From Spiroplasma floricola 23-6 (lineage in GTDB: Bacteria > Bacillota_I > Bacilli_A > Mycoplasmatales > Mycoplasmataceae), in contig NZ_CP025057.1 in NCBI RefSeq assembly GCF_002813555.1, forward strand, positions 1,166,001 to 1,230,000: a DNA stretch of 64,000 bases, given 5' to 3'. The position numbers and the translations under genes are program-made. The notes under the pieces are model-generated. The model saw nothing but the letters and a program-made list of their open reading frames with translations, was not told the DNA's origin and did not search any database. Shown one piece after another: positions 57,177 through 63,391 of the stretch; the stretch's first letter is position 1; every line of letters begins with the position of its first letter.

Positions 57177-57208
57177 AAAAAAGAACCTAATTTTGAGGTT
57201 CTTTTTTT
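57176..57208. terminator. Bidirectional terminator between the 375-aa and 64-aa genes
   Basis: 13-bp stem (57176-57188 with 57196-57208), 7-nt loop AATTTTG, A-run and T-run flanks; overlaps both convergent stop codons. Confidence 0.8.
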
Positions 57209-57401
57209 ACATTTCTTGTCTTTTAAAACTACTTTTTAAAATTTTTGCTTCACTTATAATATTTTTTAATTCATTTTTCTTAATTTTGATTTCTAACTTT
57301 GCTTGTTTAATTGCTTCTTTACATTTTTCAATTTCAGTTTCCTTAGCATTTTTTTTTACTTTAAAATCAGCTAACTTATCTTTTAATTCTTCTTTTGTCA
57401 T
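57207..57401 (-). CDS. Small coiled-coil protein (64 aa)
   Basis: Starts MTKEELKDKLADFKVKKNAK at 57401 with a strong CCAAGGAGAAAC leader. Almost entirely charged heptad-like helix (Lys/Glu with Leu/Ile), ends KRQEM. No family recognised. It has its own near-consensus promoter. Confidence 0.6.
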   Translation of the reverse strand: MTKEELKDKLADFKVKKNAKETEIEKCKEAIKQAKLEIKIKKNELKNIISEAKILKSSFKRQEM

Positions 57402-57445
57402 AATTGTTTCTCCTTGGTTTATAAGAACATTTTGCTTACTCAATA

Positions 57446-57474
57446 ATTTTAATTTAAAAGCCAATTATTGTCAA
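57446..57474 (-). promoter_or_regulatory. Promoter of the 64-aa coiled-coil gene
   Basis: Minus strand: TTGACA (57474-57469), exact consensus, 17-nt spacer, TAAAAT (57451-57446). The best -35 in the window. The transcript start would be about 40 nt before the ATG. Confidence 0.7.
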
Positions 57475-57506: not shown

Positions 57507-58083
57507 TTATTTTTTTGTATTCGGATTTTCTGTTAAAGCTCACTTTTCCATTTTTTCAAAATGATCTACAATTTTTTTAGGTGTTAATGAGTTAATTAAC
57601 TCATTTTTTGTTTCATAAAATCTTTCAATTCTGTTATCCTCTTTTAAAATAATTAAATCTATTTCTTTTCCTTTAGGAGAATATAAAGTTTTTCTATAAT
57701 CCAAATTTGGAGTAAACTGTTGAATTTTATATTTATATATAAAATCTCAAGCTCTATATATATCATTTTTGTTTTTCTACAGAAGTAGCATTAAACTCCT
57801 TTTGTAATTCAGTTTGTTCTTGTTTTGTTTTATTAAAATAGTCATTTTCAACTTTTCATTTATATGACTTTTCTATTGCTATTTCTCTTCAATAGTCCAA
57901 ATCATCATATTTTACTTTTATTTTCTCTTCTATTTCTTCAATACTTTTTGGTTGTTCTGTTTCCATAAAAAAGTCTTTATCTGTTTCTATTTCTTTTTCT
58001 CCTTTAATTTGACATGAAGTTAAAGTTAAAGTACTCATAGCAGTCATTGAAAAAGCTGCTATTAAATTTAATAATTTTTTCAT
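57507..58083 (-). pseudogene. Array lipoprotein, copy 5 (last), split by -2 frameshift
   Basis: Signal peptide MKKLLNLIAAFSMTAMSTLT with lipobox LTSC; first half reads to VEKQKWYI and a TAG at 57756-57754 (109 aa). The second half, from the AWDFIYKYK segment to NPNTKK, TAA 57509-57507, is open in another frame. Total span 577 nt, 2 nt short of the 579-nt intact copy. Mature protein unknown in function; surface-exposed lipoprotein expected. UGA Trp occurs in both halves. Confidence 0.8.
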
Positions 58084-58114
58084 ATTATCATTTCCTCTCT
58101 CAAAAATATATATT

Positions 58115-58691
58115 CTATTTTTTTGTATTCGGATTTTCTGTTAAAGCTCACTGTTCCATTTTTTTATAGTGATCTACAATTTTTTTAGGTGTTAATGAGT
58201 TAATTAAATGGTTTCTATTATTATAAAATCATTTCATACTATTCTCATTTTTTGATATATCTAAGTTTATTTCTTTTCCTTTAGGAGAATATAAAGTTTT
58301 TTTATAATCTAAATTTGGAAAAAACTGCTGAATCTTATACTCATATATAAATTTCCAAGCTATATATATAAAATTTTTGTTGTTCTATGCAAGTAGCATT
58401 AAATTTTTTAGTTAATTCTTCTCTCTCTTCTTTAGTTTTGTTTCAATAATCATTAGCTCAAACTCACTGATCTCATTTATCATGCGACAATTCATTATAC
58501 TCCTTTTGTATATCATATGTATTTATTATTCTTTCTTCTACTTCTTCAATACTTTTCGGTTGCTCTGTTTCCATAAAAAAGTCTTTATCTGTTTCTATTT
58601 CTTTTTCTCCTTTAATTTGACATGAAGTTAAAGTTAAAGTACTCATAGCAGTCATTGAAAAGGCTGCTATTAAATTTAATAATTTTTTCAT
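58115..58691 (-). pseudogene. Array lipoprotein, copy 4, split by -2 frameshift
   Basis: Same signal peptide and lipobox as its neighbours. The middle differs (EEVEERIINTYDIQKEYNELSHDK), the most divergent copy. The first half reads past the junction and ends at TAA 58337-58335 after 118 codons. The second half is open from about the AWKFIYEYK segment to TAG 58117-58115. Span 577 nt. Confidence 0.8.
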
Positions 58692-58722
58692 ATTATCATT
58701 TCCTCTCTCAAAAATATATATT

Positions 58723-59301
58723 CTATTTTTTTGTATTAGGATTTTCTGTTAAAGCTCACTTTTCCATTTTTTCAAAATGATCTACAATTTTTTTAGGTGT
58801 TAATGAGTTAATTAGATCATTTTTTATTTTATAAAATCATTTAATGCTATTTTCATCTTTTAAAATAATTAATCGTATTTTTTTACCTTTAGGAGAATAT
58901 AAAGTTTTTTTGTAATCTAAATTTGGAATAAACTGTTGAATTTTATACTCATATATATTATTTCAAGCCATATATATATAAAATTTTTGTTGTTCTATGC
59001 AAGTAGCATCAAATTTTTTTTCTAATTCAGCTTGTTCTTGTTTTGTTTTATTAAAATAGTCATTTTCAACTTTTCATTTATATAACTTTTCTATTGCTAT
59101 CTCTCTTCAATAGTCTAGATCATCATATTTTACTTTTATTTTCTCTTCTATTTCTTCAATACTTTTTGGTTGTTCTGTTTCCATGAAAAAGTCTTTATCT
59201 GTTTCTACTTCTTTTTCTTCTTTAATTTGACATGAAGTTAAAGTTAAAGTACTCATAGCAGTCATTGAAAAAGCTGCTATTAAATTTAATAATTTTTTCA
59301 T
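58723..59301 (-). CDS. Array lipoprotein, copy 3, full length (192 aa)
   Basis: The only copy in which both halves are in one frame: 579 nt from ATG 59301 to TAG 58725-58723. Signal peptide with Cys24 lipobox (TLTLTSC), an acidic linker, first half with YFNKTKQEQ-type helix, junction ATCIEQQKFYIYMAW, and second half with IQQFIPNLDYKKTLYSPKGK and LTPKKIVDHFEKMEKWALT. Predicted surface lipoprotein of unknown function. Trp residues in the first and second half are UGA. Confidence 0.8.
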
Positions 59302-59332
59302 ATTATCATTTCCTCTCTCAAAAATATATATT

Positions 59333-59903
59333 CTATTTTTTTGTATTCGGATTTTCTGTTAAAGCTCACTTTTCCATTTTTTCAAAATGATCTACAATTT
59401 TTTTAGGAGTCAATGAGTTAATTAGATCATTTTTTGCTTCATAAAATCATTTAATAATATTCTTATTTTTTGATATATCTAGGCTTATTTCTTTTCCTTT
59501 AGGGGAATATAAAATTTTTTTATAATCTGAATTTGGAATAAACTGTTGAATTTTATATTCATATATTTCATTTCAAGCCTTATATATATCATTTTTGCTT
59601 TTCTATAGAAGTAGCATTAAACTCTTTATGTAATTCAGCTTGTTCTTGTTTTGTTTTATTGAAATAGTCTTTTTCAACTTTTCATTTATATGACTTTTCT
59701 ATTGCTATTTCTCTTCAATAGTCTAGATCATCATATTTTACTTTTATTTTCTCTTCTATTTCTTCAATACTTTTTGGTTGTTCTGTTTCCATAAAAAAGT
59801 CTTTATCTGTTTCTTTTTCTCCTTTAATTTGACATGAAGTTAAAGTTAAAGTACTCATAGCAGTCATTGAAAAAGCTGCTATTAAATTTAATAATTTTTT
59901 CAT
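59333..59903 (-). pseudogene. Array lipoprotein, copy 2, split by -2 frameshift
   Basis: Signal peptide as others; lacks two codons (Ile-Glu) in the acidic linker. First half stops at TAA 59582-59580; second half open to TAG 59335-59333. Span 571 nt; adding the 6-nt linker deletion gives 577, again 2 nt less than copy 3. Confidence 0.8.
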
Positions 59904-59934
59904 ATTATCATTGCCTCTCTCAAAAATATATACT

Positions 59935-60511
59935 CTATTTTTTTGTATTCGGATTTTCTGTTAAAGCTCACTTTTCCATTTTTTCAAAATGATCTACAAT
60001 TTTTTTAGGTGTCAATGAGTTAATTATTTCATTTTTTGTTTCATAAAATATTTTAATTCTGTTATCCTCTTTTAAAATAATTAAATCTATTTCTTTTCCT
60101 TTAGGAGAATATAAAGTTTTTCTATAATCTAAATTTGGAGTAAACTGTTGAATTTTATATTCATATATAAAATCTCAAGCTCTATATATATCATTTCTGC
60201 ATTTCTATAGAAGTAGCATTAAACTCTTTATTTAATTCATCCTGTTCTTGTTCTGTTTTTTCAAAATATTTATTATCAACTTTTCATTTATATCATTTCT
60301 CTATTGCTATTTCTTTTCAATAGTCTAGATCATCATATTTTACTTTTATTTTTTCTTCTATTTCTTCAATACTTTTTGGTTGCTCTGTTTCCATAAAAAA
60401 GTCTTTATCTGTTTCTATTTCTTTTTCTCCTTTAATTTGACATGAAGTTAAAGTTAAAGTACTCATAGCAGTCATTGAAAATGCTGCAATTAAATTTAAT
60501 AATTTTTTCAT
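59935..60511 (-). pseudogene. Array lipoprotein, copy 1 (first), split by -2 frameshift
   Basis: First gene of the array, next to the promoter region. Signal peptide and lipobox intact. First half stops at TAG 60184-60182; second half AWDFIYEYKIQQ onward is open to TAG 59937-59935. Span 577 nt. Confidence 0.8.
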
Positions 60512-60646: not shown

Positions 60647-63391
60647 ATAATTGAGAACAAAAAAAGTAGTTTAGGAAAGTTTGTTGATAAATTACTTAAA
60701 AGTAAAGAACAAAAAAGTATAAAAAAATACTTAGTAGTTAGCTCCATAATAGGACTTGCTTTATCTTTAACTTTATCAGTAACTTTACCTATAGTTTTAA
60801 AAAATAAAACAGCACAAATTCAAGAAGAAATTTATTATAAATTTGAGGATAAATATTTTTCATCAAAAGAAGAAATATATAAATATTCAAGTGACAAAGC
60901 TAAACAAAATAACTACTCATTTGAAACAAGTAAATTCATTCTAGATGATAATGTTTTTTCATCAAAAAATAAATTAAATGAATATATTAAAAATAAATTT
61001 AACATTGAAAAAGATATTACAAAAAATAATCCTAATGATTATTTAATTAACTCATCAGGAGAGCTTTCACCACTTGTAAAAACAAGTGATTATGAAAAAA
61101 ATATTAAAGTATATAAAGGGGTAAATGGTGATGCTTATACTTCTGAAAATGATGCGAAAGAATCATTTATAAACAACTATAGAATAAATTATCAAGTAGA
61201 TGGTAGCTTATTTGATAATACTTTCAGTGCAAGAGAGTATTATTTAAAGAAAAAATTATTTGATTTAGAAAAACAAATAAAAAAAGAAGTTTGTTATGAA
61301 CAAGGAGGAATCTGTCAAACAAAAGAAGAAATCAAATCTTGATTAAGAAATAATATTGAAAAAGGATTTGAATATAACGGAAAGGATTTTTCAAATTTAA
61401 ATTATACAGACTTTCTAAATGCTATGAGAGATTTAGATGAGGACATTATTAATACTCATATTAAAGATGTTATAAATGCTAATAAAAGTTCTTATTGAGT
61501 AACTCAAAATACATCAAATCGACTTGGATATTTTGTTGGACCTAAATATTTTGAAAGTAAAGAAAAAGTATCTAATATTGCCAAATTTAATGCTATAGAA
61601 TCTTATGATGTTAATTACTTTATGAGCTACTTTGTTGCTATTCCAGCAATTGGTCTGCTTATAAATTCATTCATTGAATCTAAAGAATCTACACAAAAAA
61701 AATATAATATGGAAAACTACTTGAATAATATATTGAACAAAGATGAAACTATAGAAATAAATAGTATAATTCAAGAATTAAGTCTAAACCAATTGGATAG
61801 TTTATCAGAAGGATTAAATGATATTAATGATCCAGAATTTAGTAATTTTTATAAACTATTGGTATCTTTTAAAAGATTAATAGAAATATCAAAAATTTTT
61901 GGTATAAAAAAAATAGAAACCAAAGATCTGGAGTCAATAATCCAGCAAACAGTTATTAGTATTTTAAATAAAAATAAAGACTTTATTAATGGAATTTTAA
62001 ACACTAGAAATAATAAAGAAAGTTTGAGTATTTTAAACAAACTTAGTTTTGAAGATATTTATTCTTTATTTTTAAACACAAGTAATTTCTTTAATAAAGG
62101 AGGAGTTAATAAAGTAGTATGAGATCTAACACAAGGCTTTTTAAATAAAGTAGATAAAGTAATGGATGCTTTTGGTGATGGAGTTAACGCAGCTAGTGAT
62201 TTAGCAGGTTTATTTTCAAAAGATAAGAAGAAATCTAATAAAAATGATAAAAAACTTTCAGTAAGTTTAAAGAAAAAAACAGCTGAAATTTGAAGCAAAT
62301 TACATAAAAAAAATGAAGATGTTTTAAAAGCTCTTGGAATGCAAGATTATAGAACTAAAGAAAGAGCTGGACCTATTGTAATAATGAAAGCTATTAGTAC
62401 AGTATGAAGTTTAGGAAAAATAATGAGTTTTATATCTTTGAAAACATATGAAGCAAAGTTAGATAGTAACCAATCATTATATTATTTTGAACCAACTATT
62501 AAAATACCTTTTACAGATATTACTTTTGGAGGATCTGTTCAAGATCAAGAAATTAAAACTTTAATAGATACTCCTTTAAAATATTTTAATCCTAAAAATA
62601 ATGGAAAAGAAATAAATGAATTATATGAATTTAATGGAAAATATTATCATGAAAAAAGTAAAGCTATTAAAGATTTAAAATATGAAATATTTAAGAAACC
62701 AGAAGATTACTTAAAAACTAAAAAAATACTAACTTCAGTTATTAGTAAAGACAATACTTATAAATTGAATTTACCACAAGTATGTAATGGAGATGAAAAA
62801 CAAAAAGACTGTATATCAAATTATGAATACAACAGAAGATTTGCACAAGAAAAAGAGAAATTTATAGAAAATTTATTTAATAGATTTTATGAAAATAGCA
62901 AAAAAGAATACTTTTTAGATGGTTTTGGTGGAGCACATACAAGCAAAGAAATAGCTATGAATGAGTTAAAAAGAAAAGCTGATAAAGTTGAAAACTATAA
63001 AAGAGTTTATATTTATATGCTAAATAATAATAGAGTTATTAAAAATAGATTAGAAGATATTAAAGAATTTATTAGAAATAATCAGCCTTTAGAATATAAA
63101 AATATTATAAATACAGATTTAATTAAAACTAATCATTTTGATAGTTTAAAAGAAAATAATAATTATACTTTTGATATCTGAAAAGTAAATTTCTATGGGC
63201 AAGAAAAATATTTTAGATCTCAATTAGAACTTTGAAAATTTTTAGAGAATAAACTAAATTACAAAGTTATGAATTATACAAGAGAAGAAACAACTCATGT
63301 TTATAACAATATAGAATTTATAAAAAAAGAAGAATTTATAAATTGAATTAATAATCAAATAGTAGAAGTTAGAAAACAAAAAATTAATTAA
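60647..63391 (+). CDS. Large modular membrane protein (about 914 aa), start codon non-standard
   Basis: Open frame from the in-frame stop at 60611 to TAA 63389-63391 (UGA as Trp) has no ATG, GTG or TTG before the N-terminal TM. ATA 60647 or ATT 60650 after AAAGGA (60629-60634) are the best candidates; the coding evidence is the TM at about residues 29-52 (SIIGLALSLTLSVTLPIVL) right after a basic stretch. Short degenerate modules with an aromatic-rich start, a Gly/Asp-Lys turn, Phe/Tyr and Ser-Lys-(x)2-Ala/Leu recur near residues 61, 90, 151, 181, 214, 658, 754, 838 and 883 (for example KFEDKYFSSKEEIYKY and EFNGKYYHEKSKAIKDL). The middle (about 320-600) has one hydrophobic segment and helical stretches. 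Probably a surface protein; function unknown. Confidence 0.7.

Follow-up and report, generated by a model that had tools for sequence, protein, structure and literature searches.

A two-nucleotide frame break at a TA repeat in four of five tandem lipoprotein genes of Spiroplasma floricola: probably recent slippage in redundant paralogues

Why do four of five neighboring lipoprotein genes lose their reading frame at the same place? The five copies (c1–c5, Table 1) lie in tandem on the minus strand of a 64,000-nt stretch of Spiroplasma floricola 23-6 (contig NZ_CP025057.1, positions 1,166,001 to 1,230,000), hereafter the window. An earlier note on this DNA read the common break as a possible ON/OFF switch of surface antigens, as the spread of a broken parent by gene conversion, or as the deliberate production of two shorter proteins. 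Its description of the array holds: the unit lengths are as it gave them, the short c4 is explained by an in-frame 6-nt deletion near codon 30, and a single frame across both halves is found only in c3 (translation table 4). The copies are ~90% identical, with c2 diverging most, and are separated by spacers of 31 nt that each contain a ribosome-binding site. The array is real and beyond chance, and the 2-nt difference is exact across the broken copies. The deficit does not look like an assembly error, as it is shared by four copies with differing junction sequences.

Table 1. Coordinates of the lipoprotein copies and of the adjoining membrane protein gene in the window.
Feature	Position	Length	Strand	Description
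c1	57507..58083	577 nt	-	broken frame; halves at 57766-58083 (first) and 57507-57752 (second), 13-nt junction at 57753-57765
c2	58115..58691	577 nt	-	broken frame; halves at 58374-58691 (first) and 58115-58360 (second), 13-nt junction at 58361-58373
c3	58723..59301	579 nt	-	sole intact copy, encodes a lipoprotein of 192 aa; 15-nt junction at 58969-58983, 11-nt TA run
c4	59333..59903	571 nt	-	frame broken, in-frame 6-nt deletion; junction 59579-59591
c5	59935..60511	577 nt	-	frame broken; junction 60181-60193; leads in direction of transcription
divergent partner gene	60650..63391		+	membrane protein of ~900 aa, adjoins most loci of the lipoprotein family

The conserved QK codons are separated from the GCTTG at the start of the second half by 15 nt in c3 and by 13 nt in the broken copies. 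The missing 2 nt fall at one TA-rich junction, which reads, in the sense of the message, TTTTATATATATATG in c3, TTTTATATATATA in c2, TGATATATATAGA in c1 and c5, and TGATATATATAAG in c4. The CAAAAA flank of the tract that the earlier note had reported is present in c1 to c4, but c5 has CAGAAA. The TA tract is 8 to 11 nt long (4–5 TA units) across the copies and is the longest simple repeat of the lipoprotein gene, where it encodes I-Y-I of a helix. Substitutions at the end of the tract cut the pure repeat in c1, c4, and c5. In these three copies a stop follows the junction immediately (UAG, UAA, and UAG, respectively), and c2 reads ~10 codons beyond that position. The second halves comprise 82 codons including the stop and have no indels in any copy; as described earlier, they are all free of internal stops, use UGA for Trp, and keep their PNTKK end. 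The broken copies retain their own ribosome-binding sites and signal peptides, and c3 has no separate expression site. A start codon (ATG, GTG, or TTG) that would yield at least 40 aa of the second half is absent from c4 and c5; the only candidate in c1 is a TTG, and in c2 an ATG that lies 40 codons before the end.

The c3 product matches the NCBIfam model NF038029 (LP_plasma) over residues 1–24 at 24.2 bits (cut-off 24), which classes it as a lipoprotein; a Pfam search with the lipoprotein gave no family above the cut-off. In a family-level set of 60 genomes, full-length or near-full-length members are clear in the genome under study (G000) and in the related genomes G029, G039, G041, G042, and G043. 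As judged from these members, the family is one of Mollicute lipoproteins confined to one genus, with no assigned function. All copies are intact in the arrays of G029 (5/5) and G039 (4/4, one of which lacks an initial ATG) as well as at another G000 locus, the second in this genome (2/2). Because the residues flanking the break on either side are invariant among intact family members, the single long chain is evidently ancestral, and c3 keeps the ancestral layout, since the arrays of G029, G039, and the second G000 locus are full-length. Relative to these homologues at three other loci, the frames of the broken copies are interrupted in the manner of pseudogenes. A bigger tandem array, with approximately nine or ten distant members of the family, some of them with short open frames, is found in G043 (G043:C1:529051-534531).

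The position of the break in the protein is illustrated by an AlphaFold2 model that was built on the copies in the window (mean pLDDT 79, ~90 in the core). The model takes on helices at residues 48–79, 87–100, and 102–124, a beta hairpin at 130–146, and two C-terminal helices; no solved structure compared with it matched convincingly. The break corresponds to residues 107–112 and lies within the predicted third helix (102–124). Truncated copies would lose most of this helix, the beta hairpin, and both C-terminal helices.

The same interval varies in related species. The G042 orthologue, which adjoins the same partner gene, has 11 nt between QK and the core; it is also frameshifted in the signal peptide and near the C terminus, and its partner gene contains stops. 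The G041 orthologue sits elsewhere, in a different genomic neighborhood beside gpmI, and has 13 nt in the interval versus 15 nt in its sister G043, besides nonsense codons. Automatic nucleotide alignment sets the G041 gap a few bases upstream; it is placed here between QK and FW, since the first frame still contains the QK motif. The interval changes in 2-nt steps across three species (this genome, G041, and G042), which would be explained most naturally by slippage at the gene's longest simple repeat. Both orthologues belong to the same lipoprotein family and have, like the broken copies, a length change in this interval that breaks the frame, but they are single copies with several more nonsense or frameshift lesions and otherwise read plainly as dead genes, whereas the four broken copies have this lesion alone. 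Beside gpmI, the family genes of G043 (L045) and G041 (L047) share a TAA where the EQPK motif has its conserved Gln, and in L045 this TAA is the only internal stop in an otherwise open gene. Two overlapping transposase-like ORFs, IS3-like by eye, adjoin the decayed orthologous lipoprotein gene of G042 (L041:1364-2517).

The 11-nt TA run of c3 is one of five such runs in the 1.28 Mb genome and ties for the longest; a 12-nt TA run (TATATATATATA) is not found there, and TATATATATA occurs at 13 places. In G029, all five copies have a ATATATATAT tract at the same place and are in frame. A search of the genome for mutS1 and mutL gave no match, while the controls worked, and absence of mutS/mutL has been reported for the whole genus Spiroplasma (PMC8208695).

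Codon models bear on the age of the break. For the four broken copies, second-half omega is 0.38–0.49 under MG94-type models (p 0.0035–0.029; 2/100 neutral simulations as extreme) and 0.25 under GY94 with F3x4, and first-half omega is 0.21–0.29 (MG94); all these values are approximate, as codon models assume a tree and this assumption is violated by recombination. The second halves of the intact arrays give 0.44 in G039 and 1.5 in G029, compared with which those of the broken copies show no extra relaxation. Among second-half changes found in just one broken copy, 9 are silent, 19 are replacements, and 0 are stops against an expected 0.19 : 0.74 : 0.07, which is close to neutral, in small numbers. 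Recombination among the copies is detected (p<=0.001), with informative sites arranged as a mosaic of blocks that pair different copies; c3, for example, equals c2 over 34 nt just before the tract and equals c1/c4 upstream. If a single break predated all divergence of the four copies, ~68 changes would have brought ~5 stops, and the probability of zero stops would be ~0.007. Decay of the broken copies therefore needs a break that is recent, recurrent, or spread by conversion. These observations are most simply reconciled if the copies had largely diverged before the break occurred in each of them, the break itself being young, repeated, or propagated by conversion. The modest constraint on the second halves fits a young break; it would also be expected if slippage rejoined the halves.

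Taken together, the locus is probably best explained by recent slippage of a TA unit that truncated redundant paralogues, recurrently or with spread by conversion, and not by a switch. The loss of one TA unit (2 nt) from the gene's longest simple repeat would have truncated four of the five copies, and such slippage would stay uncorrected because MutS and MutL are absent. The break may have arisen repeatedly or may have been copied from unit to unit by gene conversion. The earlier suggestion of conversion from a broken parent stands insofar as recombination among the copies is clear, but a single parent is not favored: repeated slippage seems at least as likely, since the surroundings of the break differ in c2 and the interval changes length in related species. 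As the break would be younger than the divergence of the copies, the second halves would still resemble coding sequence. The truncated copies would presumably have lost their function and would give rise to membrane-anchored stubs, and full protein would come from c3 only; such stubs may nevertheless be produced and serve a purpose, as the first halves remain constrained.

A surface lipoprotein array in a Mollicute without mismatch repair, with interval changes in 2-nt steps in three species, recalls phase variation, in which the TA tract slips both ways, different copies are ON in different cells, and the sequenced clone had one ON. Vmm of Mycoplasma mycoides provides a precedent, being likewise a Mollicute lipoprotein gene with a TA repeat that varies in 2-nt steps (PMC2628566, PMC3053259). 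The TA-repeat lipoprotein switches known from Mollicutes, however, have at least 10 TA units and lie in promoters (PMC3053259, PMC2628566), and switching of Vmm is observed, whereas the tract of this array has 4–5 units, is coding, and is known from one assembly. Vaa of Mycoplasma hominis is closer in position, as a frame change at a short coding repeat turns a surface protein off; its coding poly-A tract is reported to slip at 1e-3 to 1e-4 (PMC524362). But this tract is an 8-A homopolymer close to the beginning of a lone gene for which reversible switching is reported, and the repeat studied here is a dinucleotide in mid-gene in 4/5 paralogues of one assembly. Contingency loci are characterized by a long pure repeat clearly above genome background, which the array lacks with its 8–11 nt in a genome without a 12-nt run. 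The switch put forward in the earlier note is further disfavored by the substitutions that shorten the pure repeat in c1, c4, and c5, by the in-frame tracts of all five G029 copies, and by G041 and G042, which point to decay rather than switching; the 31-nt spacers also make one transcript common to all copies probable. Switching is therefore rather unlikely. The broken copies could instead serve as a silent variant store that recombines into c3, giving antigenic variation by gene conversion. One intact copy beside four broken ones, the stop-free second halves, and mosaic blocks such as the match of c3 and c2 just before the tract would suit such a store. Variation among copies does not need silent ones, however, as arrays of this kind have all copies intact in G029 and G039, and the store is made unlikely as well by the ribosome-binding sites and signal peptides of the broken copies and the missing separate expression site of c3.

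Ribosomes or RNA polymerase might also slip 2 nt on the UA repeat and so obtain some full-length product from the broken copies. This recoding would explain why the second halves are under constraint and free of stops and indels in four copies, and why the stop is flush with the repeat in 3/4 broken copies. In c1, c4, and c5, the stop is preceded by UAU AUA, and the AUA tRNA would re-pair perfectly 2 nt back; the product of a -2 slip would regain the ancestral spacing, and -2 frameshifting has precedents in phage Mu and arteriviruses (PMC5009743). A +1 slippery site common to the copies was considered and rejected by eye, with UUU U in c2 and no good re-pairing in c1, c4, and c5, which leaves -2 as the only slip that the copies could share. 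Recoding is nevertheless improbable, since c2 has no stop at the site, inspection identified no stimulator, the private changes look near neutral, and intact copies at three other loci do without recoding. It is distinctly improbable that -2 slippage occurs naturally at the UA repeat, yields some full-length lipoprotein from all four broken copies, and lets the array tolerate the break or exploit it to set dosage. The production of two shorter proteins on purpose from each broken copy, as the earlier note proposed, would agree with both halves being open and conserved. It is extremely unlikely, because the break lies within a predicted helix and a usable second-half start is missing in c4 and c5; c1 and c2 offer only the starts described above, and relatives have one chain.

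Recent slippage in redundant paralogues would mean that, in a lineage lacking mismatch repair, one short dinucleotide repeat has broken several copies of a surface-protein family and has done so in several species; the intact sister arrays act as controls. A frame break common to paralogues does not have to signal a switch. The array also offers a test of 2-nt slipping by Mollicute ribosomes on UA repeats.

The lipoproteins are divergent from the ~900-aa membrane protein at five loci (two in G000 and one each in G029, G039, and G042). No Pfam family above the cut-off was found for a stand-in of this partner, in which the 655-aa ORF of the window was mixed with the N terminus of the second-locus partner, and NCBIfam gave nothing for the 655-aa part. 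The partner gene of the window has ATT where three homologues have ATG and is otherwise open; it appears that either a rare start codon is used or the start was lately lost. Just downstream of the array, positions 57207-57464 (-) encode a small Lys/Glu-rich, coiled-coil-like protein of ~64 aa counted from the ATG, and the gene has a good promoter-like site.
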